From Platanthera guangdongensis (lineage: Eukaryota; Streptophyta; Magnoliopsida; Asparagales; Orchidaceae), in the NCBI GenBank assembly GCA_039583875.1, contig CM077150.1, positions 187,058,375 to 187,122,374 of the forward strand: a DNA stretch of 64,000 nucleotides. The letters are read 5' to 3'. The notes beneath the pieces were generated by a model. That model made no database searches. It worked only from the letters and a program-made list of their open reading frames with translations, and was not told the DNA's origin. Each line of letters begins with the position of its first letter. Position 1 is the first letter of the stretch. Below, piece after piece: positions 5,977 to 44,570 of the stretch. The translations under genes were made by a program, and so were the position numbers.

Positions 5977-6453
5977 GTGACAACAGGAGAGGTCACCACT
6001 TTCTGGACTTAGAAAAATTCCAGAACTCATTAAGTGTTGAGTAATGTTGAATCACTCAACATGCGCTGACTTGGCTCCTCATTAGAAGAATCCTGCTTGC
6101 TTTGTCTCAGCGGTTCCTTCTCAACTATATCAACTCTTTCTTCTTCACAGCTTAGATTATCTCTTGTCTCAGCGGCTGTGCTGAGACCAACACTTCTCTC
6201 AATGCTTTGCATTGAGCAACTCAGCTGTCTCACTGATTTTGCTGAGACCTTCTTCTCAGCTGTCTCAGCTGTCTCGATGCTTTTGCCTTAGTAAAATTAT
6301 CTGACTTTCAGCTAACTCTTTTTGTTCACTTGTCCAATAAAGGATAACATGCATGCATGAACTTAATCAGACATCAAATACATTATGCCCCTTAACATGA
6401 TTGGTGATGCCTCTTCAAATCCTAAGGAACATTGGAGGGCACAATTCATAACA
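5977..6453 (-). mobile_element. LTR-Y of X copy 2, cut by the Athila insertion
   Basis: On the minus strand this begins at 6453 (TGTTATGAATTGTG, a mutated form of TGTTGGGAATTGTG at 44730) and runs to 5977, where the Athila LTR interrupts it. It is closely similar to 44254-44730. It is rich in palindromes: CTCAATGC-TTT-GCATTGAG at 6198-6216, GTCTCAGC..GCTGAGAC around 6171-6193, and a long stem around 6034-6060. The flanking CCTCG at 6454-6458 is the probable TSD of the original solo LTR. The rest should lie left of the Athila element. Confidence 0.7.
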
Positions 6454-8129
6454 CCTCGTCCAGCGGCTTTGTGAATATATATGTGACCTGCTTATCCATC
6501 GGGAAATAGCTGGGGGCTATATCCTTGTTCTCCACATGCTCTCAGATGAGGTGATATCGTTCTTCGATGTGCTTTGTATGGCTGTAAGAGACTTGATTAT
6601 TCGCAATCACTATAGCACTGGAGGGGTCGCAGAACATCGAAATCTCTTTGAACTTAAGGTTATAATCTTCGAGCTGATTCCTGAACAATAGAAGCTCGTA
6701 ACAACTACCAATGGAGATATACTCTAACTCGATAGTGGAAGTTGTCACACAATTCTGCTACTTACTGCTCCATGAGATAGGCCTTCTTCGGAGGAATTCG
6801 CATGCCTCGGAAGTGCTTTTCCTGTCAACCATACTACCTGCAAAATCCGCATCTAAAAAACAATTAGCTTGACATCATTACTTCTTGGGCACCATAAGTC
6901 AAGATTGGGAGTACACTTAAGCTATCTTAAGATTTGCTTTGTAGCAATGTAATAAGATTCTTTCGAGTTCACCTAAAATCTAGCACACACACATGTTGAA
7001 AACATTATGTCGGGTCTACTGGCAGTGAGGTAGAACAAGGATCCAATTATGCTTCTATACTTGGTTTCATCAAAATGTTTCCCTTCCTCATCCTTCTCTA
7101 GAGACATAGTTGAACTCATTGGAGTCCTCATCGAGGTTGTGTTCTCCATTCCAAATTTCTTAAGTAACTCTTTGGTGAACTTCGTCTGAGAGATCAAAAT
7201 TCCATCTTCAGATTGTTTCACCTGAAGTTCTAAGAAATACTTCTGCCCTCCCATACTGTTCGTTTCAAACTTCTCTTGCATGAGTTTGGAAAACTTCTTG
7301 CAAATGTTGTCTTCCATAGAGCCAAAAGTAATGTCGTCGACATAGATTTGCACTAGCAAAATCTTGTCTTTTACTTCGCTAAGAAATAATATCTTTTCTA
7401 TCTTTTCTTTTGTGAACTTGTTCTCAAGAAGAACGCTAGAAAATATCTTATACCAAGCTCGGGGAGCATGTTTTAAGCCGTAATGAGCTTTATTAACAAA
7501 ATAAACGTATTCAGGGAAAGTAGAGTTTATAAAACCTGGGGGTTGTGTCACATATACTTCCTCTTTCAGATTCCCTTTGAGGAATATTGATTTTACTTCT
7601 ATTTGATAGACCTTGAAGCCTTTGAGGGCAACATATGCAAGAAACAACCAAATCATTTCGAGTCTGGACAGTAAAGCAAAGCTCTGGTCGAAGTCAATCC
7701 CTCTTCATGTTTATATTCTTGAGCTACAACCCTGGCTTTATTCTTGATAATAATTCCATTTTCGTCTAGCTTGTTTCTGAAAATCTATTTGGTGTCGATC
7801 ACGTTCTGTCCTTTGGGCCTAGGTACCAACTCTGAGACTTTGCATCTTTCAAATTGATTGAGCTCCTCTTGCATTTCCAATACCGAAGAGGCATCCTAAT
7901 TTGCTTCTTCAAACTTCTTTGGCTTAACCTGAGACAGAAAACTAAGATGTAGACTGTCATTAGTAGTACCTCTTCTGGTTCTGACACCGTTGCCTGAATC
8001 TATAATGATTTGGTAAACCTTGTGATCTCTCAGGTGTCTGAATGCTAGATTTCTTCTTCGCCAACCGGCATGTTCTGCCATGTCTATAACATCTCCTACA
8101 GGTTGAGGTTGTTCTTCATCTAGACATTC
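6454..8129 (-). pseudogene. X copy 2 pol, 3' part: reverse transcriptase and RNase H (Ty1/copia, SIRE-like)
   Basis: On the minus strand this is the copia polyprotein from the integrase-RT hinge (8129) through reverse transcriptase to RNase H. The best block, 7656-6973, carries VYVTQPPGF, the catalytic QIYVDDI motif and the late-RT signature SLFYLTASRPDI. RNase H follows at about 6840-6475. Several frameshifts and stops break the frame between blocks, for example near 7700 and 6930. Translation then runs into LTR-Y at 6453, so the RNase H C-terminus is displaced. The 5' side is interrupted at 8129 by element B and continues at 20403. Homologous to 46390-44731. Confidence 0.85.
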
Positions 8130-8275
8130 TGTTGGGTACATTGGTTTAAATGTACCTGATTTGAAGAAGCCTCACCCTACTCAATGATATACATCAAAAT
8201 GTATTTGATGTATGTTGAGTTTACTTGTGCAGGTTAAGTATTTGCAATGAAGATGAAAAAGTTTCCAAGTCCATG

Positions 8276-9165
8276 TGTCGACACCCAGAGGGAAAGTGTC
8301 GACACTTAAGAAGACTTGTGTCGACACCCAGGCAAGCAGTGTCGACACTTGGAGTACTTGTGTCGACACTAGGGATGCAGAGTCAACACCAGACAGGAAG
8401 TGTCGACACAAGGAGCTGTATCGACACTCAATGAAGAAAAGTGCAGTGAAGCAGTGTCGACACTTAGAAGTTGTGTCGACACCCAGTGAAACTATGTCTA
8501 CATCAGAAAGTGTTGACACTTGGAGGCTGTGTCGACCCTCAGCAAAAGTCAGCAGAGTCTAAGTATAATGTCGACATAATAAAGAATGTGTCGACACTCA
8601 GCAGAAGACTCAACACTTGAAGAAAGTGTCGACACAAGAAAGAATGTGTCGACACTCAGCAGAAGACTCAACACTTGAAGAAAGTGTCAACACAAGGAGC
8701 TGTGTCGACACTTAGCAAAGTTCAACAAAATTCTAAGTACAAGTGTCGACACTAAGGAGATGTGTCGACACTCAGCCAGAGTCTCAACAGAAGAAGAATG
8801 TGTCGACACATGGAGCAGTGTCGAAACTCAGTAAGTATCAACACAGAAGGCATGTGTCGACACCTAGAAGATGTGTCGACAATGAACGAGTTCAACACAT
8901 GAAGATGTGTCGACACAATGGAGTTGTGTCGACACTTAGAAGAATTCAACAAAGTGCTGAAGAACAAAGTGTTGTGTCGACACTCAAAATCAGTGTCGAC
9001 ACTCAAAATCAGTGTCGACACATGAAGAATAAGCTGTGTCGAGAAGTGAATTCTACAATACAAGGAGTTGTGTTGACACCTTGAAGGCTAGTGTCGACAC
9101 TTAGTCAACTTGTGTCGACACTTAGTCTATAAGTGTCGACACTTAAAGACAGACAGTCTCGACAC
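8276..9165. repeat. GTGTCGACAC palindrome array in the B 5' LTR
   Basis: Dozens of exact or one-mismatch copies of the perfect 10-base palindrome GTGTCGACAC are spaced about 15-40 bases apart with unrelated sequence between. ORFs read through it (repeating VSTPRG- or CRHL-type peptides) are artefacts. Confidence 0.95.
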
Positions 9166-9296
9166 TTTCAGACAGTTACAGATTTTTCAAGAACTGACTG
9201 GATGACTTGACAACTGCCATTCCAGCTGGTCTACTGCACCTGTCAGAGTTATCAGAAATCAGTTATGAACCGGACCAGCCGGTTACCATGAAGAAG

Positions 9297-9309
9297 GCCT
9301 ATAAATAGG
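9297..9309 (+). promoter_or_regulatory. TATA box of the B 5' LTR
   Basis: GCCTATAAATAGG sits 130 bases after the palindrome array. It is repeated in the 3' LTR at 19521-19533. Transcription is expected to start about 30 bases downstream. Confidence 0.75.
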
Positions 9310-9670
9310 CTTATACTGTCTACAGAAGAAGTTGTTCAGATGATCAAGTAATACAAAGAAGATCTAGCTATTCATTGAAGAATCTAGTGAAGATCTAAGA
9401 AGTTGGAGAGAGAGAGCTCCATCCAAGAGGACAGCCATTGGAACCAGGCAGAGAAGAAGGGTTCAGATTTTGTTCTGAATCTTAAGTAGCAGAGATCACG
9501 GATCAACTGCAGAGGAGATCAATCTTATTGTGTTCAACATTCAAGAAGCTTTGAAGAAAGTCAAGTCAGGTTGATCTCAGCTGAGTTCTTCCAAGAACTC
9601 ATCAATAAACTCACAACTCTTCTCTCTTTTCTCTGAGTTGTAGGGTTTACATTTTGTATTCATATTATCT

Positions 9671-9926
9671 TGTAGGATCCTTAGGGATCTGAGTTTGTAA
9701 GCCTACAATTATAAAGGCTGAGTGTAGGGCTTGTGTGCCTGAGTGTAGGAGATTTGTATCTCTGAGTGTAGGCCTGTTGTGGCTGAGTGTAGGCCTGCTG
9801 TGGCTGAGTGTAGGCTTTGTGAAAAAGCTGAGTGTAGGTCTTTGGAGAAGACTGAGTTGTAGGGCCTTGGGCCTGAGCTGTAGGAACCTGTTTTGGGGTT
9901 CTGAGTGTAAGATCTGAGGATCTGAG
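9671..9926 (+). repeat. String of eleven small hairpins with a constant linker (B 5' LTR)
   Basis: The linker CTGAGTGTAGG repeats about ten times. Between each GTAGG and the next CTGAG lies a short inverted repeat whose stem differs every time: GATCC-ttag-GGATC, AGCC..GGCT, GAGAT-ttgt-ATCTC, GCC..GGC (twice), GCTT..AAGC, GTCTT-tggag-AAGAC, GGCC-ttg-GGCC, GAACC..GGTTC, AGATC-tgag-GATCT. It lies downstream of the TATA box, so it would be in the RNA. Homologous strings occur in LTR-X and LTR-Y. Confidence 0.85.
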
Positions 9927-10186
9927 ATAGTGGAGGAGTTTGGCCGAATCTAGTACACTACTAGATAGGCGAAGGGGGAAAGTGGATGTACCCAAACCTT
10001 GGGGAACCACTATAAATCTGTGTGTCTACTGTGTGCTTGTGTAATTCTGTGATTGCTGCTTGTGTGCTGTGATAAAGTAACTAGAACTCTGTGATATAAT
10101 CTGAATTCTGCCTAAAAAGTCAAAAAGATATAAGTCACCTATTCACCCCCCCCCCCTCTATGTGAGTAGGTACAATATCTTTCAAG

Positions 10187-10198
10187 TGGTATCAGAGT
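10187..10198 (+). other. Primer binding site of B (initiator tRNA-Met)
   Basis: TGGTATCAGAGT matches the canonical plant iMet primer site TGGTATCAGAGC at 11 of 12 positions and starts two bases after the LTR. Confidence 0.9.
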
Positions 10199-10290
10199 GA
10201 GGTTACTCAAAAAGGGACATAACTGTCTGAGTAGATCCTGTTGGCAGATTCAGTCTAAGTAAAATTATAAAATCAAGAAAATCAAGAACT

Positions 10291-12326
10291 ATGGCTTCCA
10301 CTGAGAATCATAAGGAATTGGGATCCATGAAGCTACCCATTTGCAGAAAAGAAATATTTGGCATCTGGAAGGAAAGGGTGAGACTGTTTATGGAAGTCTC
10401 AGACCCTAGAATATATATCACAGTTAAAGAAGGGCCATATGTGCCTATGAAGGTTTCAGTCTTAGATGCTAATCAAAGAACACCTAAAGATTTCTCTGAA
10501 ATGACAAAGTATGAGATAGTTCTAGCCACAATGGACAAGAGGGCTCAGAACATCAATGTGAGTGCTATAGATGATGCTACCTTTCAGAATTTAATACACT
10601 GTAAGACATCTAAGGAGATGTGGGATACTCGTATTGTGTACATGGAGGGTTCTAAAGAAGTGAGGCAGGACAGAAAGTCCTTATTAAACCAAGAATATGA
10701 AAGCTTCAGGCAAGGTAGATCTGATAGCATAACTGAATGCTATAAGAAGTTCTATAGGATTGTGAATGAGCTAATGTCCTATGACAGAGAATTTAGTAAT
10801 TATGAGTTAAATGATAAGTTCTTAAGGTCCCTAAGAAAGGATTGGGACACCAAGATCTGTGTCATTAGGGAAATGACAAAGTTAGCAGAAATTCCTCCTC
10901 CAACTTTGTTTGGAAAATTGCTATCCTATGAAATGCAATTGATGGTGAGGAAAGAAGAGGAGAAGACTACAAGAAGTGACATAAGGAAAGGACAGTGGCA
11001 TTTAAAACAGAAGCCCCCAGAAAATACAGAAGTAAGTCACCAACTCCACCTCCTAAAGTAGCTGAGACTGAGTCAGATGAGTCAGCAAGCAAAAAGTCTG
11101 AAAGCAGTGAAAGTGATGAGGACTTTGCTGCCTTCACAAGACATTTTCAGAAGTTCTTAAAGAAGAAACAGTGGAGGACAAAGCCATCTACTTCACAGGG
11201 TAAAGAAGACTATTATCAGAACAAAAAGTCATCAAAGAAAGATAGGAAAAAGACCAAGTCAAGAAAAGCAACTCTATCAAAAATAGTATGCTATTGATGT
11301 AATAGACAAGGACATGTTATTGCAGACTGTCCAGAGAAAAGGAAGGAGTCTAATGATAAGAAGAAGACTCAATTCAAGGGCAAGAAGGGAAGATCTTTTG
11401 TTGCCAAAAAGGATAAGAGCCTGTCAGACATATCTTCATCAGAAACTGAGTCAGATGCTGAAGCATACATAGGACTGTTTGCTGAGGAAGAAGAAGAAGA
11501 GTTCATCCAGATCATGAACTCTATATATGAACAAGAGGACAGTCAGTGCCAAGGAATGATGGCATTGACAGAAAGTGACAAAATCCAGGAGCAGCCTGGA
11601 CCTAGTAAGGTACAAAATTGTTCTTTCAGTTCAATTTCTTGTGCTAGTTCAGAATCAGATTCATCATCATCAAGTGATGAGAGTGCATCTGAGTCTGAAG
11701 AGGATATTCATCAATTGATAGATGAATATAAAGTTCTGTTGCAAGCCTTTAAGAAGAGCAAGTCCCTAGCCAAGAGTCAGGCAAAGGAAATTGCTAATCT
11801 CAAAGTTGCTGCAACTGATTTTGAGAAGATGAATGATCAAAAGCTAAATGAAATAGCTAGAATGAAGCACATAACTGTGATTCAGATGGGGACTATATCA
11901 TTTAAGAATGATCAAATCAAAAGTCTGGAGATTAGTCTTCAGAAGGAGAGAGATTTAGTTGCTAGGTTTTCTAAACCAAAGTCTGTTCTACCCTTAATTG
12001 ATGAATTTGTTCATCAAAAAGGTAAAGCTGGACTGGGGTTTACTAAACCTGCAAGGACTGTTCAGTCCAAGTCCAAGGGCAAATCCCCAGCTCTCAACAA
12101 GACAGCTGTAGATAAAACAGCTAAGAATGTACCTAAGCAAAGGTACAATAGGTTTGAGTGTTGGTGTTGTGGCAAGGTAGACCACTTTGCCATGGACTGT
12201 TGGCACAATGCAAGTGCCAAAGTGAGTAGCAAACTGCCTGTTGGAAAACCTGCAGGTAGCTTTGTTAGGAAGCAAACTAACCAGTACCAAGGACCCAAGA
12301 ATTCTTTGGGTTCTAAGGTTCACTAA
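10291..12326 (+). pseudogene. Element B gag (SIRE-like, two zinc knuckles), frameshifted
   Basis: The ATG at 10291 begins a copia-type gag (MASTENHKELGSMKLP, then a UBN2-like capsid region with FLRSLRKDW). The first frame ends at 11061. The true continuation moves to another frame near 10990, implying a 1-base indel, and then stays open to 12326 apart from one TGA at 11295-11297. That stop falls inside the first zinc knuckle (CY*CNRQGHVIADC). Ser/Asp/Glu- and Lys-rich linkers follow, then a helical segment and a second knuckle, CWCCGKVDHFAMDC, at about 12158-12200. Gag would package the RNA in virus-like particles. The second knuckle also occurs in both X copies. Confidence 0.85.
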
Positions 12327-12345
12327 TCTGTTTTACAGGTAAGTC

Positions 12346-14709
12346 CAAGTGGTCATGCCCCAATATGATACTTGGACAGTGGATGTTCCTGGCACATGAC
12401 TGGAACAAGGGGATTGCTAAAGGACTACACACACATCAAGGTTGGTCCAAAAGTCACCTTTGGTGGTTCTGAAAAAGGAATCATCAAGGGTTTTGGTAAC
12501 ATTTTAGCTCCCATATAACTATTACTCAAGTGGCTTATGTCAAAGGTTTGAAACATAACCTTATTAGTATAAGTCAATTGAGTGATGTAGGATATGACAT
12601 CTCATTTGTCAAAAATGGTTGTCATATCAGGAGGTCAAATGATCAAGAGATCATTTTGACAGGTTATAGAAAGAGGAATGTCTATTGCCTAGACATTATG
12701 GTTGAGAACAATGGTTCTCCAGTGTGTCTTGTAGCTGATGAGAAAGTCTCTCATTGTGTCAAATGGCACAAGAGACTAGCCCACCTCAACTACAAGACAA
12801 TTGGCCAACTCTTTAGCAAAGAGTTAGTGAGGAATGGTTCTCAAGTTAAGTGTATTAAAGATGGAATATGCTCAACTTGTCAAAAGGGCAAGCAGACTAG
12901 ATCCACCTTTAGTAGCATTGAAATCAAAGATGTTGTGAGGTGTTTATACCTCTTGCATATGGATCTCTTTGGTCCTATGCCAGTTCACAGCCTAAGTAGG
13001 AAGGTCTATACCTTTGTGGTTGTAGATGATTACTCAAGGTTTTCCTGGGTGTTCTTCCTTAGACAAAAATCTGAAACACCTAGTATCTTTTATAGCTTTG
13101 TCAAACAAATTCAGAATGAACTAGACAGTACAGTGGTCAAGATAAGAAGTGACCATGGTACTGAATTTCAATCTGATAGTATGGCAAAACTATGTGAAGA
13201 ATTTGGGATATTTCAGGAGTTTTCTTCACCAAGAACACCTCAGCAAAATGCCATTGCTGAGAGGAAAAATAGAACCTTGATTGAGGCTGGTAGAACCCTA
13301 TTAAGTGATACATCACTACCAGAATATTTCTGGGCTGAGGCAGTTAATACTGCATACCATGTAATTAATAGGGCTACCATTACTAAAAGCCACAATAAGA
13401 CCCCCTATGAGATTGTGAAAGGCAGAAAACCAAACCTATCCTATTTCAGGATCTTTGGTTGTAAGTGCTTTATACTTAACAATGGAAAGTCTTACTTGAC
13501 TAAGTTTGCTGCCAAATCCCAAGAGGGAATTTTTGTTGGGTACAACAACAACAGTAAGGCTTATAGAGTCTACAACTTGTCTACACAAGTTGTAGAAGAG
13601 TCTGTACATGTAGTATTTGATGAAACTAGACTTATTAATAATGAGTTGTCTAGTAGTATATGCAGCTCCACAGGTATAACTAAGAAGATGGACCAGCTCA
13701 CTATAGAAGAAGGACCTACTGCAAGACAGCAGGTAGAAGATAGTGGCTGTTGTCCAGGGGGAGTACTATATGTACCTAATGAAGAAGAAATTCAAGGAGT
13801 GCAGCAAGATGAAGAAACTGAAGAAGTTCAACCTGAAGCCAGGATGCCTCCAGCTAATAGGCATCTTAGAGATCATCCAGCAGATCAAATCATTGGTAAT
13901 CTAAGACAAGGGGTACAAATAAGGAGCAGAAATCTGAATGCAGCACTCAACTCCAGTTTTGTATCCCAAGTAGAGCCAAAGAAGTTTAAAGAAGCCATCC
14001 TAGACCCTCATTGGATTGAGGCAATGCAGGAAGAGCTGAATCAGTTCAAGAGATGCAAGCTCCGGGAGCTTGTTCCTAAACCAAAAGACCACAACATAAT
14101 TGGGACCAAGTGGATCTTTAGGAATAAGATGGATGAACATTGAGTAATTGTCAAGAACAAAGCAAGATTGGTTTTGATCAAACCTTTGCTCCAGTAGCCA
14201 GACTGGAAGTCATAAGGATGTTCCTGGCCTATGCAACCTTTCAAGGATTTAAAGTTTACCAAATGGATGTTAAGTCAGCCTTTTTGAATGGTAATCTAAA
14301 AGAGGAGGTCTATGTGGAACAGCCATCAGGATGCAAAGAAGACAGAAAAAGCACAACTGGAACCTGTCAATTCCTAGGAGGAAGGCTGATTTCATGGAGT
14401 AGCAAGAAGCAAACAAGTGTGGCTATCTCTACTGCAGAATCAGAATATGTGGCTGCTAGAAGTTGCTGTGCTCAACTTCTATGGATACAACATCATCTTG
14501 AGGACTATGGAATTCAGGTAAGTAGAACTCCACTCTTTTGTGATTCTACTAGTGCTATATCAATTGCAAACAATCCTGTTTCCCATAGTAGAACTAAACA
14601 TATTGAAATAAAATATCATTTTCTTAGGGAACATGTAGAAAAAGAAGATATTTTACTGGAATATGTTAAAACAGATAATCAACTAGCTATATGTATACTA
14701 AGCCCTTAG
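12346..14709 (+). pseudogene. Element B pol: protease, integrase and RT/RNase H remnant with internal deletion
   Basis: The protease signature YLDSGCSWHMTG starts near 12369, preceded by a TGA. The main frame 12530-14143 holds the GAG-pre-integrase HHCC region (WHKRLAHLNYK, then CSTCQKGKQ) and the integrase core with D in MDLFGPM, D in IRSDHGTEF and E in IAERKNRTLIE. A stop at 14141-14143 ends the hinge and early RT (GTKWIFRNKM). In the next frame, 14164-14709, early RT (YQMDVKSAFLNGNL, VYVEQPSG) joins directly to mid-RNase H (CKEDRKSTTG). The palm with YVDD and the start of RNase H are missing, probably about 250 codons. CAGGAT at the junction suggests a microhomology deletion. The RNase H end is frameshifted near 14690. 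Confidence 0.9.
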
Positions 14710-15272
14710 AAGAATCAAAGTTCAATAGGTTTAAAATTGAACTAGGTATGATAAACTTAGAATAAGTTTATAGAAATGGCTAAGTGAAATAGTGTCGACA
14801 CACAGAGTTGCCTGTGTCGAGACAGAAAATTGGTGTCGACACTTCAGTGAAAATGTGTCGACACATCTAGGAAGTTGGTGTCGACACTTCAGAAAATTAG
14901 TGTCGACACATAATTAGTAGGTGTCAACACATCCAAGGTAGTGTCGACACTTAGGCTTTACTCAGAATTAGTAAGGTAAAGTCTCGACTATGTGTCGAGC
15001 TGAGTGGTGTCGACACATAAACAAGTGTCGACACATATATTCTGTTGACTAAACTTGTGTCGACACATATGTGTTGCGACATTATAAGTCAGTGTCGACA
15101 CTTTTCAGCAGTGTCAACACAATTAAAGTTAGTTAACCCGCCCTTTCATCTTCAATCTTAGAAAGGTATAAATAGGATCTCTTCATTGTCTGTCGACACG
15201 CTCGCCAAAGTTTCGAGACCAAACTTGTTTGTCGAAACCTCTCTTCTCTCCAGTCAAATTCTTCAAACCCTA
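14710..15272 (+). repeat. B pol-env spacer carrying a second GTGTCGACAC array
   Basis: About ten exact GTGTCGACAC copies lie between 14792 and 15101, plus variants such as GTGTCAACAC. This is the same palindrome that fills the LTR U3 of B. A TATA box follows at 15165. No gene is visible in the spacer. Confidence 0.9.
15165..15177 (+). promoter_or_regulatory. TATA box upstream of the B env-position gene
   Basis: GGTATAAATAGGA lies 45 bases after the palindrome array and about 95 bases before the ATG at 15273. The order array, TATA, start copies that of the LTR promoter. Confidence 0.65.
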
Positions 15273-17990
15273 ATGGCGCCAAAGCTCGAGGAGAACGTCA
15301 ATGAAGGCTACGAACTGGTGCGACATGCGTTTGAGGATGCAGACCCGGAGATCAAGAATGTGGTAACCTTAGTTGCAGACTCGGGGTTGGATTTTCTTGT
15401 TTCAGAGCCAACAAAGATTTGGAAGAAGGAAGTTCTAGAGTTTCTGAATGGAGCTAAAGTAGATGAATCTGGACTCAAGATAAAGTCTAGGATTCATGGT
15501 GAAAAGGTGAAGGTCTCACCTAAAAGTTTGAGAAAGGTTCTAAACCTGCCAAGGACAAAAGAATAGGATGAAGTAACTGCTTCTAAGACCAGAGAAGCAT
15601 TGACATGGTGTGGCCTGGATTCAAAGATGAAAATTGGTTCTGTATTCAATAGGAAAGACATGAACAGCCAGGGAAAATTTCTATCTGAAATTGTTGGAAA
15701 AGTGATCTTGAGTAAGCCTGGAGGGCATGACAGGGTCTCAGCCCAAATGTTCAATCTTATGACAAGGATTATCTTCACCCTGCACACTGATTGGTCTGTT
15801 GTTGTCTTTGATAAGATTAAGGAGAGTCTGAAGAAACCCAATTTGGGTAGAATACTAAGTTTATACCTTGTTGGTAGTATACCAGAAGTTATGAATCAAG
15901 CTGTAGGCACTAAGATCAACCATATGAGAAAGATGGACATAAGGATATTCTCTAGGTGGGACAGAGTTTTAACTAAGGAGATGCCTACTCCTGAGAAAGT
16001 AACACCCCTAAAGAAGAAGAAGAAAATAGCCCCAATGGGTCAAGAATCATCCAGCAGTTGAGAAGAATAAGTTGTCTTCACTCCTGATGAAGAAGACACT
16101 GGAGGTGCTGGGAAGTCTCCAGCTCAACAAGATGCTGCAGAAAGGCAGGGGGAGCTACCACCAGCTAGCCCCTTACACCAGGATTCTGTCCAGGGGGAGC
16201 CACTAGTAGTGGAAGAGCCAACTCCACTGGAAAGTGAACAAGCAACCCACACTATCCTTGAGGTAATCTCAGAAATCAATCAATTAGATTTCCTTATTGA
16301 GAGTGGAGTTATAATTGACCACTTATCTGATGTTAATCAGCAACCACAGATTGATAGTCTACCCCCAGATGTTGTCATGGAGGGCACATCTGTTACAGCT
16401 CAAGTTGTATTTGATCAAGTTACTGATGAGCCAAGAGAATCTCCATCACTTCCTCAACAAGAATTTACCATGGAAGATCTATTTCTTAATCTGGATCAAG
16501 GAGATCTTGAGAAGGAAAGTACTGCTGCTGAGGGGGAGAAGTCCCAAGTTGAGGGGGAGCAGGTAATACTTGCTGAAGAACCTGCCAAGCAAGAACCAGA
16601 GAAGCCCAAGGAAGTTGAGGAGCTACCAAGGGAGAGGGTAGATATTGCAAGTACATCAGCATCTGAAGATGAGGAAGCTGCCAGAGCAAAGAAAAGGAAA
16701 TTTCAAGTATTCAAGAGGAGGAGCCAGACTTATAAGAAGGCATTGCAAACCATAGCACCACAGCCAGCACTACAGCCAACTCCATCAGTAGATTACAGTT
16801 CTCTGTTGGTTGCTATGCAAATAAAGCTTGATGAACAAAGGCAAGCTCTTGAAAAGTATGTAGATGAAGGGAAAAAATCACTACAATTTGATCTGGCCCA
16901 GGACATTAAGTCCATAAGGTTTGAAATGAATCTCAATAAGAAGGAGATGACTGACTACTTCCATAAGGGAGGGAATACAGTAGTCTATCTAGCAACTCAT
17001 CAAGAGAAGATAAAAGCTCAAGTAGATGACATTGCACTGAAGCAAGGATATGTTCTTGAGAACCAGATCAGAATGAATGATAACTTAACTGCTTCCCATA
17101 ATGCAATTGTCACAGAGATGAAGAACATAGCTGCTGGACTGACTACTTCTATTGCTACTGCTAAGGCAGATTTTGATAAAGCACTGCAAAAGAGTTTAAC
17201 TGATGTTACTTCTATAATTCAAGACTCTCAGAAGTTGATAACTGAAAAACTCCAAAGGTTGAAACCTTTCTTTAAAGATGGAGTCAACTATTTGGATAAC
17301 CAAGTAAGATTTCAAAAGGAAGATCTAAGAGATCACATGGAAAGAGAAGTCATAAAGGGGGAGAGGGTGTTAGTCAAAGTTAGCTCTGATCATGCTAAGT
17401 GGATTTCTAATTCTATCAAAGCTACTCTTGGTTATCCTCCTTTATATGATGATGACAATGTAGCTGAATCTGGGATACATCCTGCATATCTAGGAGGGGA
17501 GCAACCTGAAGTGGCTCAAGTAATCTACCCTCCTCTAGATTTTGATATGGTTCAAGCTGATATACAATCAACGTATAGCCCACCTGGGGGAAAGGACAAT
17601 GTCATCATAGAGAAGGTGGTACAACCAGTATCTGAGGCTATGCAAGAAGCTTTGCTGAAAGAACAGGAAGCTAGATTGTCTAAGAAAAGGTTCAGAGAGC
17701 AAGCTGAACTAAGACCTGACTTTGAGCAGTGGAGCCCCACTTCAAGAAACATTATCTTAAATGCATGGAAAGCTGCCAAAGATAATATACAAGACAGAAA
17801 CAAATGGTTTTCTGAACTAGAATGGAGGAAGCATGAGACAAGGCAAGAAGCCATATTGCAATATAGAAGAAAGGCCAAGATGGGAAAGATACCTCCTACT
17901 GCTCAGGAGCCTAGCAAGTACTTTCCCAAGCCTTATCATTATTTTGAAAGGCAAAAGATTAAAGCTGAAGAGCAAAAGAAAAGGATCTGA
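15273..17990 (+). pseudogene. Element B env-position gene (SIRE-type ORF after pol)
   Basis: One frame of 906 codons runs from ATG (MAPKLEENV) to TGA at 17988-17990, broken only by TAG at 15564, TGA at 16059 and TAA at 16068. The start is supported by the homologous MAPRS start at 33683 (minus). Codons 1-250 form the conserved domain (VLEFLNGAKV, then KVKVSPKSLRKVLNLP, GKFLSEIVGKV and IFSRWDRVL). A Pro/Glu-rich linker and a basic patch (KKRKFQVFKRRS) follow, then about 350 residues of mostly helical, coiled-coil-like sequence and a Tyr/Pro end (KYFPKPYHYFERQ). No signal peptide or transmembrane helix is obvious, so 'env-like' describes position only. The two stops near 16059 sit in the linker. 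Confidence 0.8.
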
Positions 17991-18364
17991 AAGGCAAGAA
18001 GCCTGCTGATACTGAAGTTGCTGAAGCCCTGTTCAAGCCAAAGTACAATCAGGAAAAGGAATTGTGATTAGGAGGCTGATCAGAATTAGAATAGATTTAT
18101 CTTAGTTTACAGTTGTAATATGCTGATTTAAAAACACTCTGTAAATTTTGAATGATGAATATGACAAAGTGTTTAGAACAATGTGATTGTTATAAATCTA
18201 TTTCATAATTATTATGAGATGATATCTGTGTTTACATGTTTTGATTAATACATGTTTAAGTTTGCCCTGTATATATAATCCTGCTTTACATCATGCTATG
18301 ATTTTTATTCTGTATGGTGTATATCATTGACTAAGGGTTATGACTTCTCCAAATAGGGGGAGAT
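17991..18364 (+). other. B 3' untranslated region and polypurine tract
   Basis: AT-rich and noncoding. It ends with the purine-rich AATAGGGGGAGAT (18352-18364) immediately before the 3' LTR, where plus-strand DNA synthesis would be primed. Confidence 0.8.
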
Positions 18365-20402
18365 TGTTGGGTACATTGGTTTAAATGTACCTGATTTGAA
18401 GAAGCCTCCCCTACTCAATGATATACATCAAAATGTATTTGATGTATGTTGAGTTTACTTGTGCAGGTTAAGTATTTGCAGGGAAGATGAAAAGTTTTCT
18501 AAGTCTATGTGTCGACACCCAGAGGGAAAGTGTCGACACTTAAGAAGACTTGTGTCGACACCCAGGCAAGCAGTGTCGATACTTGGAGTACTTGTGTCGA
18601 CACCAGGGATGCAGAGTCGACACCAGACAGGGAAGTGTCGACACAAGGAGCTGTGTCGACACTCAATGAAGAAAAGTGCAGTGAAGCAGTGTCGACCGTA
18701 GCAGTTGTGTCGACACCCAGTGAAAACTGTGTCTACATCAGAAAGTGTCGACACTTGGAGGCTGTGTCGACACTCAGCAAAAGTCAGCAGAGTCTAAGTA
18801 TAAGTGTTGACATAATAAAGAATGTGTCGACACTCAACAGAAGACTCAACACTTCAAGAAAGTGTCGACATAAGAAAGAATGTGTCGACACTCAGCAGAA
18901 GACTCAACACTTGAAGAAAGTGTCGACACAAGGAGCTGTGTCGACACTTAGCAAGTTCAACAAAATTCTAAGTACAAGTGTCGACACTAATGAGATGTGT
19001 CGACACTCAGCCAGAGTCTCAATAGAAGAATAATAATGTGTCGACACATGGAGCAGTGTCGACACTCAGCAAGTATCACCACAGAGGCATATGTCGACAC
19101 CTAGAGATGTGTCGACACAAACACTGACCAAGTTCAACACATGAAGATGTGTCGACACAAAGGAGTTGTGGCGACACTTAGAAGAATTCAACAAAGTTCT
19201 GAAGAACAAAGTGTTGTGTCGACACTCAAAATCAGTGTCGACACAGGAAGAAGAAGCTGTTTCGAGAAGTGAATTCTACAACACAAGGAGTTGTGTCGAC
19301 ACCTTGAAGGCTAGTGTCGACACTTAGTCAACTTGTGTCGACACTTAAGTCTATAAGTGTCGACACTTAAAGACAGACAGTCTCGACACTTTCAGACAGT
19401 TACGATTTTTCAAGAACTGACTGGATGACTTGTACAGCTGTCATTCAGCCTATCTACTGCACCTGTCGAAGGTTGTCAGAAATCAGTTATGAACCGGACC
19501 AGCCGGTTACCATGAAGAAGGCCTATAAATAGGCCTTTACTGTCTTCAGAAGAAGTTGTTCAGATGATCAAGTAATACAAAGAAGATCTAGCTATTCATT
19601 GAAGAATCTAGTGAGATTTAAGAAAGTTGGAGAGAGATGCTCCATCCAAGAAGACAGCTTTGAACCAGGCTGAGAAGAAGGTTCAGATTTTGTTCTGAAT
19701 CTTAAGTAGCAGAGATCAAGGATCAACTGCAGAGGAGATCAATCTTATTGTGTTCAACATTCAAGAAGCTTTGAAGAAAGCAAGTCAGGTTGATCTCAGC
19801 TGAGTTCTTCCAAGAACTCATTAGAAACTCACAAACTCTTCTCTCTTTTCTCTGAGTTGTCGGGTTTACATTTTGTATTCATATTATCTTGTAGGATCCT
19901 TAGGGATCTGAGTTTGTAAGCCTACAATTATAAAGGCTGAGTGTAGGGCTTGTGTGCCTGAGTGTAGGAGATTTGTATCTCTGAGTGTAGGCCTGTTGTG
20001 GCTGAGTGTAGGCCTACTGTGGCTGAGTGTAGGCTTTATGAAAAAGCTGAGTGTAGGTCTTCGGAGAAGACTGAGTTATAGGGCCTTGGGCCTGAGCTGT
20101 AGGAACCTGTTTTGGGGTTCTGAGTGTAAGATCTGAGGATCTGAGATAGTGGAGGAGTTTGGCCGAATCGAGTACACTACTAGATAGGCGAAGGGGGAAA
20201 GTGGATGTACCCAAACCTTGGGGAACCACTATAAATCTGTGTGTCTACTGTGTGCTTGTGTAATTCTGTGATTGCTGCTTGTGTGCTGTGATAAAGTAAC
20301 TAGAACTCTGTGATATAATCTGAATTCTGCCTAAAAAGTCTAAAAGATTTAAGTCACCTATTCACCCCCCCCCATCTAGGTGAGTAGGTACAATATCTTT
20401 CA
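18365..20402 (+). mobile_element. Element B 3' LTR
   Basis: 2038 bases, closely similar to the 5' LTR. Palindrome array 18509-19388, TATA box 19521-19533, hairpin string about 19890-20146. In the hairpin units, the substitutions relative to the 5' LTR (units 6, 7 and 8) all lie in loops, so every stem is kept. TSD CATTC follows. Confidence 0.95.
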
Positions 20403-21840
20403 CATTCTTCATCTACCATACTTGGATCGACGACCTTAAATGAGCTTGGAGCATCTTCCTTCACAGCTTCATCCAAGCTTAGTTCTTCGAAACTGGTACC
20501 TGCATATACACCAACAATACTAGACGAGCTGCTATGGAGCATTTTTGTCTCAACAAATGCAACATTTATATACTCTTCTACCACTAGGGTTTTTTGGTTA
20601 AAAATCATATATGCCTCACTATGGATATTATAACCTACAAAAATACCTTCAAAACATTTATCACTAAACTTCGTGTGATAATACTTCCCATTATTAAGTA
20701 CGACACATTGACTGCCAAAGATCCTAAAGTAGGACACAGTCAGTTTTCTGCCCTTCAATAATTCTTAGGGAGTCATATAATGGTGTTTGTTGATTAGTGC
20801 TCTATTTTGCAAGTGAAAAGCTATGTTGACAGCTTCAGCCCGGAAGTACTTTGGTAGTGAAGCGTCATTCAACATAGTTGTACATGCTTCAATTAGGGTT
20901 CTATTCCTTCTCTCGGCAAATCCATTTTGTTGTGGAATTTGCGGGGAGAAAAACTCATGAAAGATACTTTGACTTTTACAAAATTCTATCATGGCACCAG
21001 TCTCAATCTCTATTCTATGATCAATTCTGATTTTGACCGCTGAGCAGTCTAATCCATTCTGAATTTGCCTAACAAAATTAGTGAAAGAATCAAAAGTGTC
21101 TGAATTATGTTTTAGAAAGAACACCCTAGTAAAACATGAGTAATCATCAACAATTACCAATGTATAGACTCTACCTCCTAAACTGTGAATTGGAATGGCA
21201 CGAATAAGTCCTTGTGAAGTAAATATAGAATTCTAGAAGAATCTTTTTCAAAAATGCCGTTAAAGGTAGCCCTTGTCCGCTTACCATCTGGCATGTGTGA
21301 CACAGACACTCTTTAAGGCACTTAATGTTAGGGGCATCATGCACTAACTTGTGAGAAAATAACATGTTTATTGTTTTGAAATTAATTTGTGCTAATCTCT
21401 TGTGCCATTGGTCATAGAGAGACACAATATCTTTAGCCAAAATAGCATACAGGAAAAGAAGTTTCTAAACACAAAAAATTCAAACAAAAGATATTTCTAC
21501 TCCGAGTGCCTATTCAGACGATCTCCAAATTAGCAGATGATTTTATCAGGCACTTGTGCTTGTAGAACCCAACGATATAGGCTTTATAATATAGTTGACT
21601 TATGCTTATCAGATTATGTTGTAATCGTTCGACATAAGCCACGTCTGTGAATGAGAATATGTCGCTGGAAATCATACCATAGCCTTTAGTAATTCCACTA
21701 TCTGACCCTCCAAATATGACCTTTGGACCATCTTCAACAGGGGTAAATTCTCGTAGTAGGTTCTTGTCCCGGTGATATGCTGAGAGCATCCACTGTCCAA
21801 GTACTAGATTGGAGTTTTATTGGCCTTTGGACACAGCTGC
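20403..21840 (-). pseudogene. X copy 2 pol, 5' part: protease and integrase
   Basis: On the minus strand the protease YLDSGCSQH motif lies near 21800 with its catalytic DSG intact. The GAG-pre-integrase region follows (ERLQHNLISISQL; QWHKRLAQINFK), then the integrase core: D in the early strand near 21180, D in KIRIDHR near 21020, and E in RRNRTLIEA near 20900. Frameshifts occur near 21440, 21165 and 20760. The N-terminal zinc region keeps CHTCQM. The frame runs into the B insertion at 20403 and resumes at 8129. Homologous to 47840-46391. Confidence 0.85.
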
Positions 21841-21979
21841 AACCATATGTTAGTTTACCTTAGGAACCCAAACATATTTGAGTCCTTGGTTCCTTGTTAG
21901 TTTGACACTACTTGGAACATTAACATTGCGAGGGGTCAGTCTCGCGCAGTTAACTCGTGGAGTTTCAAAATTAGTAGGA

Positions 21980-24131
21980 TTAAACTAACAATCTACGCCA
22001 AAATGACCTATTTTTCCGCAACACCAATAGTCAAACCTGTTGTACCTTCTATTGTACTTCTATTTTACCTTTTGTATATAAGGTCTAGCAGGGGCTATAG
22101 ACTTGGATGTAGAAGCCTCCTGATTGAAGCACACACAAGGCTTCTTAGTTACCTTAACGAAAGGTATGATAGTTTTGGCGTTTAGTGTCTTCTTAAAATT
22201 AGGTCCATGAAAAATAGGATCATAGTCTTTAAGAGTTATATCTTCGTAAGGAGCCTTAAAAACTTGCTCCAAAGTTTCGAGGATGGGTCAATTCTTGAGA
22301 GCGCTTCTTAGGCTCTACATAGGTAGGTTTAGCGAAGTGCCCATAGGACATCTCAGATTCATTTTTGTTCATGGGGAAAATATCCTTCTTAAAGGAGGGT
22401 TGACTCTGAGGTGCCTTCCCTTTACATTTGGCAGTGGTTCTCTTAGTAGCCTTACCTTTTTCAGCTAGGTGGCCAAGACCACTACCCGTCTTTGGACGAA
22501 AAAATCATCGATGAGAGGGAGAATAGTTCTCAACTTGGAGTAGCTTTAAATAAGTTTCCTCTCCACCAAGAGCTTTTCTTCTAGCTCATCTAAGTATTTC
22601 TCCTTTAGGCTTAATGGCTTAGCCGAGCATTTCAATTACTCTTTAAATAAGTGGAATTCATCTCTGAGAGAAAGTAATTTTGCAAGTTCCTCCTTCAGGC
22701 TTGTTTCCATTGCCATGAGGGAGGAAATCTCTTTTGCTTGTTTTTTGACTACCTTGTGACATTTGTCAAAAGCTTTCAAAAGTTCTCGATGCTAAGCCAT
22801 CAAGTTGGAATCGTCTTCCTCTGAAGAATAGCCTTCATGACCATCAGTTGATGTTTTTGATTTAGAGAGTATCATGTGTGAGTTTACCTACCCATGATAC
22901 TCGGACGCCAACTTCCTCGTCTGATCGAGCCATAAGCCTGAAGTAAGCTTCTTCATTCTCTGAACTAGATTCGTTTGAGTCGATGTCACTAAGAGTCTTT
23001 GACCTCTTAGCGACGAAGATTTTCTCTTCCTTCCTCTTGACCTCTAAGGATCTCTTCTCTTCTTTCTTAGATCCTTCCGTATTTTTGAATGGACACTACG
23101 CAATCATGTGTCCTATCTTATTAAAACAATTGCACACAACTTCAGAGGAAGAATATTTATTCGGTTTATAATTATACCCATCCTCTCAATTGTAGTTCTT
23201 CTTGGATCGATCATCATCACGATGTGATCTTTTGAACTCAGTGGAGGATGACTGATTCTTCATTTGTCTCCTCTTGCTAAGCAATCTTTTGAAATGTTTA
23301 GAGATGAGAGAGAACTTTCCATCAGATAGCTCAGAACTGACGTTCTTGGAACAGCGTCCTCTAGGGTGTCTAGAGCACATGTCCATACTGGTGACACAAC
23401 TTTAGACTTTCTCGAACCTACAACCTTCAGAGCTACCGAATTATCTTTGCGTGAAGTCCGTCTGCTCTGCTCCTCCTTCTTTCTGGTATTCATCTGGAGT
23501 TCATAGGAGAGCAATTTTGCAAAAAGGTTCAGAGGTTCAATCTTCGACAACTTCCCAAACTCCCTATTGGCTATAACATTTTTGTCCAAATCCTTTGTCA
23601 GGGATCTCAGAAATTTGTCATTGTGCTCTCCATTAGTGAATATGTCACCATAGTTTCTAATGTCGTTGAAGATGTTGAAGAATTTCTCGAAGCTGTCTGC
23701 AAAAGAATCATTTGATCCTTGCTTGAACGCCTCATATTCTTATTGAGCAACGATCTGTGATTGTCTCGAACTTCTTCCCTACCTTTCATAAGCACAACCA
23801 GTTAGTCCCACATCTCCTTGGCAGATTTGCAGTGGAATAAGTTTTAAAGCATTGAGTCTTCCACTACAATGACTATAATATTATTTACCTTTTTGTCTAA
23901 GGAGACAAAGGCAATTTCATCCTTGGTCAAGTCCATCATTTTATTAGGGATCATGATTACGAGATTCAGATCTGAGGCTTGTGTAAGTATGTGAGGTCCT
24001 TCTTCCACAATCTAAAAAATCCTCCAATCTATTACTTCCATGAAGAATCTGACTCTTTCTTACCACATAGGGAAGTTCTCTTTGGTGCACATAGGTAACT
24101 TCATAGAAGACATGTCCTTGATCTTATCCAT
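21980..24131 (-). pseudogene. X copy 2 gag (SIRE-like)
   Basis: The start ATG (minus) is at 24131-24129, matching 50138 in copy 1 and the gag start of element B. Many stops and frameshifts. The first zinc knuckle (about 23115-23070) has lost its second Cys (now Phe, FNKIGHMIA) and has a TAG before its last Cys. The second knuckle (about 22035-21995) has its first Cys replaced by Tyr (YWCCGKIGHFGVDC). The same knuckle lesions are present in copy 1, so they predate the duplication. Confidence 0.8.
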
Positions 24132-24209
24132 AGTTACGAAGAGGAATATATTGACAATAGATATGAAATCTTGTTCAAGGTGTTATTATCTTATGTCGAA
24201 CAACAACCC

Positions 24210-24221
24210 TATGTTACCAAT
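24210..24221 (-). other. Primer binding site of X copy 2
   Basis: On the minus strand the LTR end is followed by ATTGGTAACATAGGG, a decayed iMet primer site (TGGTATCA..). Copy 1 has ATTGGTATTATAGGG at 50212-50226. Confidence 0.6.
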
Positions 24222-24409
24222 TGAAAGTATCTAGTGTCTATCTAAATGACCTAGAAGGGGGTGAATAGGTGATGTTTGTGTCTTTGCAGAATAAAAATAC
24301 TTTAAAAAAGAGAGCACACAAACACAGCGATTTATAGTGGTTCCCTGAGTTGGGTACGTCCACTGTCTAGCCTCGCCTATCTACCATGAAGGGCTAGATT
24401 CAGCTACTT

Positions 24410-24600
24410 CACCTTTCTCAGATTTCAACAAATCTTACGCCTCAGAGCTGCAACTCCTATAATTCAGAGAAAACGCTCCTACCACTTGGAGAACAACCTC
24501 TCCTACAACTCGATCCACAACCGGATCTACAACTCAATCCACAAACGAATCTACAACTCAATACACAAATGGATTTACAAAACAGAGATAAAATCTCCTA
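24410..24600 (-). repeat. Hairpin string in LTR-X2
   Basis: Short inverted repeats alternate with a CCTACAACTC-type linker (transcribed as GAGTTGTAGG). AGATTT-caac-AAATCT at 24420-24435 and GATCC-acaacc-GGATC at 24512-24527 are intact. A later unit has a broken stem (ATCC..GAAT) that is intact in LTR-X1 (ATCC..GGAT near 50568). It lies downstream of the TATA box. Confidence 0.75.
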
Positions 24601-25081
24601 AAAATGTAAAAGAGTATTACACAAAAGTATTACAAACAATATTGACAAGATCTAAAGTCTTCTATTCATTCTTCTTCGATTAGGTTGAACTTGAATAACT
24701 TGGAGAACACAAAAAATGGGAAACCTTGAAGACTTTGAATCTTAAATCGACTGGATATAGGAGAATAGGAACTTTAGATTGCAATGATCCAGTCCAGTTG
24801 GAAGATGAAGACCGAATTGTACAGAGCTAACATCTGTCGATTGGAAAAATCGCAAACTGTACGGGAGCCGACGGGAAATGTTCGCACAGGATATTTCTTG
24901 TAATGTTTTGAGCATGATTAGGGTTGATTAAAAATCCACCCTAGGTATTTATAAAGATCCTCAATTGCGACGGCTATAAAAGAACTTAAAAAACAAGACA
25001 TTCGAAAACACTGTACATGGCGTATCGTTCAACCCGAGCCAAGATTTGAAAAACAGACGAAAAAATATCCCAAGTCTTTTT

Positions 25082-25612
25082 CGTCGAGTATCATTGAGTA
25101 TAGCCGAGTATACTCGCCGAACTAGTATTGATATTCGACAAAATTCATGTTGAGAAATTTAGCTCGTTCCAACTTGCCACTCGACGCCAGGCAAAAGTCA
25201 TACTCGATGAATTTGGCGAGTATTGGCTAGTATACTCGATGAATTCAGCGAGTATTGGCTACCTGATCGGACTCATTCGAGGCCGGACACAGTCATAGTC
25301 GGTGAATTTTCCATGGAAAATCCGGAGAAGTAAAATTGAATTGACTCGATGAACTCGTCGGGTATCGACTAGTATATTTGATGAATTCGGCGAGTATTGC
25401 TAGATACATTCGACGAATTTGACGAGTATACACGGGAATACTCGACGATTTTTTACTTGGCTGATTTTCCAACTCTCAGAGATTTTACCTCAGGTACAAT
25501 ATGATGAATTCGACGAGTGTTAATAAGTATGCACGATGAATTTGGTGAGTATCAACGAGTATACTCGACGAATTCGAGGAATATCCCTTACAATACTCGA
25601 CGAATTTTACTT
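25082..25612. repeat. Palindrome array of LTR-X (CTCGACGAATTCGTCGAG type)
   Basis: Repeated half-sites ACTCGACGAATT and GAATTCGTCGAGT (with GACGAGTAT variants) are spread over about 530 bases of U3. Combined they form the 18-base palindrome CTCGACGAATTCGTCGAG. The LTR-X1 copy has the same array at 61077-61460. Confidence 0.85.
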
Positions 25613-42956: not shown

Positions 42957-43254
42957 AGCTAGTCACGTAGAGGGGGGGGGGTGAATAGGTCTTTAAAAAT
43001 TCCTAAGTCTTTTTGTTGTTTGCTTACTAAGAATTTAGCTTTCTTTTACTTTCTTCCTAAGGTTATCTTAGAGCTTGTCCTTAGTACCTGCAATATAAAA
43101 GAAGAACAAACAACACAGTAAAGCACATAGATATTTATAGTGGTTCCGCAATTGGGTACATCCGCTTTCCCTCCCACCTTTCAAGCTTATGTTAGACAAG
43201 GTCAAAAGTCCTACAAAATGCACCTCAGAGTTTACACCTCATGCCCTTAGCCTT

Positions 43255-43690
43255 ACACTCAGGTTCTCTTCAGAACCCTACCTCAGAACCATAAAGGTTC
43301 CTACCTCAGAGGCCTGCAGTGCTCCTACAACTCAGTGGTCCTCAAACCACCAACGTCAACCTTATCTCTAAGGCCTACAGCTCAGGCATTTCAATACTAC
43401 AACTTTAGTCATAAGGTCCTACTCCCAAAGTGTTGCAGTACTCCTACAGCTCAGTACCCTTCCAGGTACCTACCTCATTACCCTTCGAGGCACCTACAGC
43501 TCAGTGACACACTTGTCACCTACCTCAGTCCAAAAGGCCCTACTACTCAGGCTGGAAGGACAGACCTACTCTTAGATCCACTCCAGGATCCTACCTTAGT
43601 GCCCCAGCAGGGCACCTATCTCAATGACTAATTAGTCACCTACAACTCAGGCACAAAAGGCCCTACAGCTCAGATTCACATAACCTGAAT
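43255..43690 (-). repeat. Hairpin string in LTR-Y
   Basis: In plus coordinates: GGTTCT-cttc-AGAACC (43262-43277), GAACC-ataaa-GGTTC (43286-43300), GTACC-cttcca-GGTAC (43454-43469), GTGAC-acactt-GTCAC (43504-43519), GATCC-actcca-GGATC (43575-43590), GTGCCC-cagca-GGGCAC (43599-43615) and TGACTAATTAGTCA (43625-43638). They are separated by CCTACCTCAG/CCTACAACTCAG linkers (transcribed as CTGAG..GTAGG). Stems differ, linkers do not. Confidence 0.85.
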
Positions 43691-44093
43691 CCTATAGGAA
43701 ATTAATCAAAAATTGAAATAAATTAAAACACTGACTCAGAGATAAATCTCAGAGTCTACCTTGTTGGACTGAGTAGGTAACAGTCCAGCCCTCTTATTGT
43801 AGAAGGAATTAGTCATGTTCTATAGGTAACTGCTTCTCTGCTGCACTGAAGAACAACTATCTACTGTTGAAGGCTGACGACCCTTCACATAGCTATCTCT
43901 TCTTGTAGATTAGATCAATCAGCCAACTTGTTCTGCATATAACAAACTTGATGAACTGCAAAAGTTTCAGCTATCTTTCTCTTCCTCCTGGCTTGCACTG
44001 CTGTACTTAGCTTTCGAGCTCGTTGGAGAAGATGAAGTCCTGATGCCTCTATTTTCTGTAAACCTTAATCCCTCTTATTCTCGATTCAATTTT

Positions 44094-44108: not shown

Positions 44109-44310
44109 TTGATTTGAATCAATGACACTATTTGAGTGTGCGACCAGCCATGGATGGTGAGCGACACCTCCCCCAGAAGAAGACAAACAGTAGCATCTGG
44201 CGCTACTGTAGCTTTCCCGCAACGGCATGAAATACTTTGACTTGTTGACTACTGGTGACGTCAGGAGTGGTCATCACTTTCTGGACTTAGAAAAATCTAG
44301 AACTCATTAA

Positions 44311-44570
44311 GTGTTGAGTGATGTTGAATCACTCAACACACGCTGACTTGGCTCTTTATTAGAAGAATCCTGCTGGCATTGCCTCAGCGGTTCCTTCTCA
44401 ATTGTCTCAATGCTTTCTTCTTCACAACTGATATTATCTCTTGTCTCAGCGGTTGTGCTGAGACCAACACTTCTCTCAATACTTTGCATTGAGCTACTCA
44501 GCTGTCTCAGCGATTATGCTGAGACCATCTTTTCAGCTGTCTCAGTTGTCTCGACGCTTTTGCCTTAGTA
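44311..44570. repeat. Palindromes in the LTR-Y U3
   Basis: GTGTTGAGTGAT-gttga-ATCACTCAACAC (44311-44339) is a perfect 12-bp stem. GTCTCAGC and GCTGAGAC pair at 44443-44464 (loop ggttgt) and again at 44504-44525 (loop gattat). CAGCTG words recur. The truncated copy at 5977-6453 has the same set with small changes. Confidence 0.8.

Follow-up and report, generated by a model that had tools for sequence, protein, structure and literature searches.

Between the TATA box and gag, Sirevirus families of the orchid Platanthera guangdongensis keep about 3 to 19 short hairpins in a row, and in these rows the pairing is kept while the stem letters differ. Judged from sequence, the row is very likely an RNA structure under selection. 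This part of the original prediction is supported by the pairing of each stem with its own partner, a loop-biased divergence between families B and B2, fewer shared variants in stems and linkers among copies of family Y, single-pair differences between paralogues and an AUG-poor stretch; against it stands thin compensation among the Y copies. The best combined explanation, a selected leader structure together with a Gag-binding array, is one that we favour with somewhat less than even confidence.

To our knowledge, little is known about the cis-acting RNA signals of plant LTR retrotransposons, even though Sireviruses make up a large share of some plant genomes. Motif discovery has difficulty with a structure whose letters change and whose pairing does not, and tandem paralogues of such units provide a natural record of pair-by-pair change.

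Hairpin strings in element B and neighbouring LTRs

The features on which the analysis rests lie in one window (the whole stretch of 64,000 nucleotides that was analysed):

8130–10184, plus strand: 5′ LTR of element B, 94.3% match to 18365–20402
8270–9180, plus strand: GTGTCGACAC palindrome boxes in U3 of B, upstream of the TATA box, like the known Sirevirus RM type
9300–9306, plus strand: TATA box of B, 703 nt upstream of the conserved GGAACCAC block
9676–9922, plus strand: hairpin string of the B 5′ LTR, 11 stem-loop units, linkers TGAG-(n)-GTAG
9943–9970, plus strand: terminal two-step hairpin of B, GCC-GAAT-CTAGTA/TACTAG-ATA-GGC, by direct reading
9982–10017, plus strand: conserved R/U5 block GTGGAYGTACCC...GGAACCACTATAAAT, the anchor for finding related LTRs
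18365–20402: 3′ LTR of element B
19895–20141, plus strand: hairpin string of the B 3′ LTR, 10 of 11 units found by the linker-only grammar
24421–24597, minus strand: hairpin string X1, 8 units
43242–43691, minus strand: hairpin string Y (Y1), 19 units
50428–50604, minus strand: hairpin string X2, 8 units

Element B is a Sirevirus. Its LTRs start with TGTTGG and end with TTTCA, and its target duplication is 5 bp (CATTC). At the start of the 3′ LTR the PPT AGGGGGAG is followed by AT and TG (AGGGGGAG-AT-TGTTGG), as in Sireviruses. In Sireviruses the PPT is also repeated close to the 3′ LTR, chiefly downstream of env; AGGGGGA (7 of the 8 letters, as searched) occurs at seven sites in the internal part of B, five of which (16147–17356) lie within the env-like open frame, not after it. 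The Sirevirus junction of 5′ LTR and PBS is CA-ATTGG (or G at the second place)-TATCAGAGC; B has TTTCA-AGTGG-TATCAGAGT (CA-AGTGG-TATCAGAG), a match in which the last base departs.

Other Sirevirus traits are a run of C close to the LTR end, the poly-C integrase signal, at 10146 and 20365, and a TATA box in mid-LTR (9300 within 8130–10184). The 5′ LTR has 26 TGTCGACA boxes in U3 and none in R/U5, and 11 further palindromic boxes stand at 14793–15191, matching RM boxes, which occur both in U3 and ahead of the env-like gene. The core of the B boxes is TCGA, as against CGG-CCG in 12 of the 13 elements tabulated in the available part of PMC2829016. Pfam matches (Retrotran_gag_2, gag_pre-integrs, rve and SH3) give a copia-type gag and integrase, and the best-scoring relative of the integrase comes from the orchid Platanthera zijinensis. 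The gag gene begins at 10291. Neither the open frame of 639 aa between pol and the 3′ LTR (16071–17990) nor the frame with a CCHC pattern at 12159 has a Pfam match, and the first CCHC zinc-knuckle pattern of the B gag, at 11289, is broken by an in-frame stop.

The B string consists of eleven linker-separated inserts, 11 to 18 nt long, that each fold back to pair with themselves. A grammar based on linkers only finds all 11 at 9676–9922, which is where the original prediction had placed them, and the stems that it named are present. The same design was rightly recognised in LTR-X and LTR-Y, on the minus strand, with 8 units in each of X1 and X2 and 19 in Y. The statement that each stem differs was too strong: of the 4+4 stems, 9 of 11 are distinct in B and 7 of 8 in X1, and in Y1 all 19 are, damaged units being counted. 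Several Y1 units are damaged by changes absent from most other Y copies read. A position downstream of a TATA box, claimed for all strings, was found for B, X1 and Y; X2 gave no TATA match.

The GTGGAYGTACCC...GGAACCACTATAAAT block lies downstream of the B, X1, X2 and Y strings, with small departures in Y. Between string and block sits the terminal hairpin, present in B, B2, X, C and E, with an inner stem that varies in X, C and E and flanks that are kept.

Palindrome arrays in LTRs are a known Sirevirus feature that element B also has: in the available part of Bousios et al. 2010 (PMC2829016), RM boxes have one sequence per element, lie in U3 upstream of the TATA box and are discussed as cis-regulatory DNA and as sources of small RNAs. 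The string differs from these arrays in its position downstream of the TATA box, its differing stems and its constant linkers. It is very improbable that it, too, is a set of regulatory palindromes acting at the DNA level like the RM boxes. Sirevirus LTRs do carry palindromic box arrays, but RM boxes repeat one sequence upstream of the TATA box, exactly where B has its own array, and the palindromes of the string differ in sequence, so that no single factor would bind the stems.

Stems pair with their own partners

Counted over five positions in B, where units were set strictly by the linkers, own arms make 4.18 Watson-Crick pairs, against 2.14 with the arms of other units, a value reached by none of 100,000 permutations. 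The corresponding figures are 3.68 and 1.83 in Y (0 of 100,000), 4.00 and 1.71 in X1 (130 of 100,000) and 3.75 and 1.70 in X2 (257 of 100,000). When 53 units of six families were pooled, 213 of 265 outer positions were Watson-Crick, compared with 117.8 after permutation (0 of 20,000), some unit boundaries in X, Y, C, D and E having been placed by eye, which favours pairing. Single-family permutation was weaker in C (5 units; 154 of 20,000 reach the observed value) and D (4 units; 868 of 20,000).

On the plus strand, the linker-only grammar yields 19 inserts in which the four outer pairs all form if G-U is accepted; 15 lie in the two B strings. The mean was 2.1 and the maximum 6 in 50 block shuffles, which covered this strand only. 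The minus strand gives 13 inserts with four outer pairs, 12 of them in X or Y. Across 38 units (34 distinct), 86.5% of cells are paired, against 53.1% after shuffling, and the covariation score is 0.905, against 0.261; none of 500 shuffles reached either value. Sliding the partner by one column lowers pairing from 86.5% to 50–52%. Two coarser measures on these units are unremarkable, namely two-sided-change pairs (261 of 500 shuffles) and pair types (41 of 500). The outcome named in advance as speaking against the prediction, stems that pair no more often than in shuffled units, did not occur, as the permutation and shuffle tests show an excess of own-arm pairing. Rfam covariance models gave no match at gathering score in the window.

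We considered an excess of G-U over A-C as proof of RNA sense and set it aside, the direction being right and the signal weak (20 vs 6 in the six families, p = 0.076; 20 vs 10 among shared Y variants, p = 0.049; 15 vs 9 among Y singletons).

With pairs limited to 30 nt, mean outer-pair probability is 0.81 in B (11 units), 0.71 in X1 (8) and 0.64 in Y (14 of 19 units); with unrestricted folding it falls to 0.34, 0.25 and 0.37 for the same units. The hairpins are therefore predicted to be local and weak, not a rigid fold. Permuting the arms worsens the fold energy of B at a span of 30 only (1 of 200), not at 60 or unrestricted; in X1 the counts are 39, 12 and 51 of 200 at span 30, span 60 and unrestricted, and in Y the effect is clear at all three (0, 1 and 0 of 200). 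Unrestricted folding does not favour the B and X strings in these models, which counts against a rigid structure. Minimum energy of the whole string (B, z −2.1, with 6 of 200 shuffles as good; Y, z −4.6, 0 of 100) was dropped as an argument, the predicted folds not being simple strings.

Related LTR families share the design

Related LTRs were found by the conserved-block anchor, so that hairpins played no part in their selection. The survey covered 270 kb of one genome, made up of 200 kb surrounding the window, 50 kb from another part of the contig and 20 kb next to the first stretch, and it yielded families B2, C, D and E as well as a second Y. No string was seen at another anchor, in L040, which was set aside, and two chance matches in L044 were left out.

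B2 retains the B linkers. Family C has linkers such as GTGTTGTAA and stems such as GGGTT/AACCC and GGATTG/CAATCC, and family E has linkers such as CGAGATTGTAG. In family D the loop ACCTGATCAAAA, or variants of it, is kept on the differing stems CAAGTC/GACTTG, GAGC/GCTC and CAGG/CCTG. The constant part is the linker in the group of B, X, Y and E, and the loop in D. By reading, B and X loops have no common palindrome.

The D leaders (L026:8893, L030:143 and 5935, L032:8966, L046 and L049:6721) have a near-constant loop, which often contains TGATCA, a hexamer complementary to itself like those of kissing-loop dimer sites. One D unit reads CAGA/TCTG and CAGG/TCTG in L030 and CAGG/CCTG in L046. It was not accepted as proof of a G-U step, since the two L030 copies are 5.8 kb apart and may be the LTRs of one element.

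In a linker-free hairpin scan of 15 LTRs, the highest signal falls immediately upstream of the anchor for B, B2 and C (z 2.3 to 3.7) and for X2 (2.4), with no anchor-side peak in D (−0.3 to 1.3), X1 (0.7) or Y1 (0.9); values of 2.3 to 3.2 also occur further upstream in B3, C4 and Y2. Pairs were not counted on the A3 alignment, because MAFFT had misplaced the last unit when aligning different families.

Searches of viral contigs by linker pattern, pol protein, pol alignment or anchor pattern yielded nothing. A scan of genome contigs gave 16 loci with a copia-type pol, probably at least in part eukaryote contamination, and the grammar scan finds a string in none of them. Some of these pol genes stand in bacterial assemblies, namely Labilibacter sediminis scaffolds (L001, L002 and L003) and a Trichormus MAG (L004 and others), where they are probably plant or fern contamination.

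How units change

Between B5 and B2a, nine unit pairs matched by eye differ at 3 of 76 stem positions, 19 of 47 loop positions (p = 4.5e-7) and 3 of 76 linker positions; the B units GTCTT/AAGAC and GATC/GATC, which have no partner, and one extra B2 unit were left out. Of the three stem changes, one replaces C-G by U-G, another is missing from the second B2 copy (L038), and the third breaks an inner pair.

The argument from loop substitutions in units 6, 7 and 8 between the two B LTRs is not supported: over the whole array they differ at four sites, three in loops and one in a linker. We give this comparison no weight, because the changes are too few and, having arisen after insertion, would not be expected to reflect selection on the RNA.

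Family Y has at least 47 matches in the 4.2-Gb genome (query 43205–43714), from the 40 of 5583 first-look candidates that were scored. We read 12 copies, Y1 and Y2 plus ten fetched ones chosen for matches covering most of the string; in this comparison, 1 of the 19 Y units has no stem in the majority. Variants seen in one copy only are even (0.427 per stem site, 0.406 per loop site and 0.377 per linker site) and arose mostly after insertion. Those common to at least two of the 12 copies occur at 0.115 per stem site, 0.219 per loop site and 0.108 per linker site (stem vs loop, p = 0.023), and the contrast between shared and singleton variants has p = 0.066. Because singletons are even and shared variants are fewer in stems and linkers, these data suggest that constraint acted during the copying of elements, not afterwards.

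Tandem duplication, which had been discounted, is probably involved after all: unit blocks are present or absent among the Y copies, so that unit number varies, and some Y units combine the common stem GTGAC/GTCAC with loops that differ. In L052, two adjacent Y units share the loop TGGAAG, and a single compensated pair sets them apart, G-C in one and A-T in the other. Compensation between homologous units of the Y copies is thin, with two-sided changes in 7 of 1062 cells, 4 of them Watson-Crick. Between Y1 and Y2, with one unit of unequal length skipped, 13 one-sided changes gain, lose or weaken a Watson-Crick pair and none is compensated. The resulting picture is one of duplication followed by slow pair-by-pair change, with post-insertion damage on top.

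A mutational origin, in which intrastrand template switching by reverse transcriptase (or repair of a DNA cruciform) rewrites one arm as the complement of the other, would account for the many perfect, palindromic stems and for the blocks of units gained or lost among Y copies. We judge it improbable, as it does not predict the slow change of stems and linkers beside fast loops between B and B2. Moreover, the clearest paralogue difference, in L052, is a single pair and not a whole arm, shared and private Y variants are distributed differently (though at p = 0.066) and one B2 stem has U-G in place of C-G. Selection on the pairing remains the preferred reading.

A probable leader, AUG-poor in most families

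From 25 nt past the TATA box to the conserved block, ATG occurs once in 651 nt in B5, never in 666 nt in B2a and B2b, never in 657 nt in C1, once in 528 nt in E1, never in 564 nt in D2 and once in 491 nt in D1, the TATA sites of D being less sure; B3 and C4 have three each. Compared with shuffled means from TATA to anchor, five of six leaders tested are AUG-poor: B5 (1 vs 11.1), B2a (0 vs 10.2), C3 (1 vs 7.1), E1 (1 vs 6.8) and, in part, X1 (4 vs 9.3). The Y1 leader is not significantly so (9 vs 12.8). CAT is not depleted; ATG is not the sole triplet to depart, however, since low counts are also seen for TGA (C3, E1 and X1) and for AGT (C3).

Over the 600 nt upstream of the TATA box, ATG density is 11.7 to 21.7 per kb in the LTRs of B, B2, X1 and Y. 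In C and E it is low in this part as well, at 3.3 to 6.7 per kb, so the contrast between leader and upstream sequence is weak in these families. Three AUGs fall between the TATA box and gag (10291) of B5: one 40 nt past the TATA box, one in the anchor block and one beside the poly-C tract.

Since the leaders are AUG-poor, the string probably lies within a transcribed, scanned 5′ leader. The sequence fits a long leader that starts near the TATA box and is scanned up to gag, and the scarcity of AUG makes an RNA start downstream of the string unlikely. The position is also one in which a packaging signal would be looked for, downstream of the TATA box, upstream of gag and poor in AUG.

Translation control is the strongest rival to a Gag-binding array, though rather unlikely in our estimate. 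The leader would then be a scanned, weakly structured 5′ UTR whose hairpins set the pace of ribosomes, prevent initiation before gag or divide the RNA between translation and packaging, with linkers as unstructured landing sites or sites for host proteins, not for Gag. The hairpins are indeed short, and between a point just past the TATA box and the anchor there is almost no AUG in B5, B2, C1, C3, E1, D1 and D2, with a partial depletion in X1. However, this poverty spans the whole leader and not the string in particular, B3, C4 and Y1 leaders do contain AUGs (three, three and nine), and scanning requires neither constant linkers nor maintained hairpins.

If poly(A) lies beyond the string, the string would belong to R and stand at both RNA ends, where unit-specific stems could keep the first strand transfer and genome pairing in register, as identical repeats could not. 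A location between the TATA box and the GGAACCACTATAAAT block, with GU-rich sequence after the block, and stems that are mostly distinct within a string agree with such a role in reverse transcription. It has a low probability all the same, as stems are repeated within B and X1 and the number of units varies between Y copies.

A candidate Gag-binding leader and its likeness to known systems

As for function, we tentatively propose, by analogy, a multivalent Gag-binding array whose linkers are held apart by hairpins. The stretch would be the 5′ leader of the genomic RNA. Units would be gained by tandem duplication, after which stems would change by single base pairs, G-U steps being permitted. 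Less surely, the hairpins may act as spacers, so that the G/U-rich linkers (UGAG-n-GUAG) remain single-stranded and regularly spaced; constant G/U-rich linkers between weak hairpins resemble a many-site RNA handle for a zinc-knuckle Gag. As in retroviral leaders, many similar sites would be offered to the zinc-knuckle part of Gag, so that full-length RNA could be marked for packaging by many weak sites and not one strong site, perhaps with some help to dimer formation. Ribosomes would still be able to scan as far as gag, since the hairpins are weak and for the most part lack AUG. A stricter version is unlikely: a modular string in which the linker (or loop) is recognised and the stems are interchangeable spacers, duplicated and then individualised by compensatory change, would give plant Sirevirus genomes a countable, multi-site code for packaging and register.

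Small RNA viruses have dispersed multiple packaging signals, many degenerate stem-loops that share one short motif. Family D, with its near-constant loop, is most like these; the strings differ in being tandem and confined to the leader, and in B, X, Y and E it is the linker that is constant.

Retroviral packaging signals such as the HIV-1 leader, whose dimer has more than two dozen NC sites according to the available part of PMC7395439, are likewise 5′ leaders with hairpins and many sites of differing affinity. The strings differ from that leader in being built of similar modules in tandem, as many as 19, whose stems differ, and in belonging to a plant copia-type element. Within the same genus, a structured non-coding element is also known in the inverted repeat at the PPT/3′ LTR (available part of PMC2829016), which is one hairpin at the PPT and not a leader string.

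Among the matches listed in searches of open-licence papers, and in the available parts of PMC2829016, PMC3601003 and PMC10760457, we found no description of the leader string; what is known there are the U3 palindrome arrays. Motif discovery that is blind to changing letters may explain its absence from the available part of PMC2829016.

Other features of B, X and the window

The B linker CTGAGTGT is the exact complement of ACACTCAG in the B U3 (window 8130–9299). The two B LTRs have three and four copies of ACACTCAG in U3, and it is absent from the B leader and internal part; a contact between 5′ and 3′ RNA through this pair is conceivable.

Element X is present twice, at 5977–25451, where it is interrupted by B (8130–20402), and at 44255–61480, where the interrupting element has Ty3-type gag and pol domains and LTRs at 51096–53678 and 58496–61072. 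Tandem 32-bp repeats with palindromic cores, e.g. GAATTC, lie upstream of the X string at 25200–25585 and 61189–61682 and are possibly the U3 boxes of X. An open frame matching the ATHILA ORF-1 family occupies 1348–2586 of the window.
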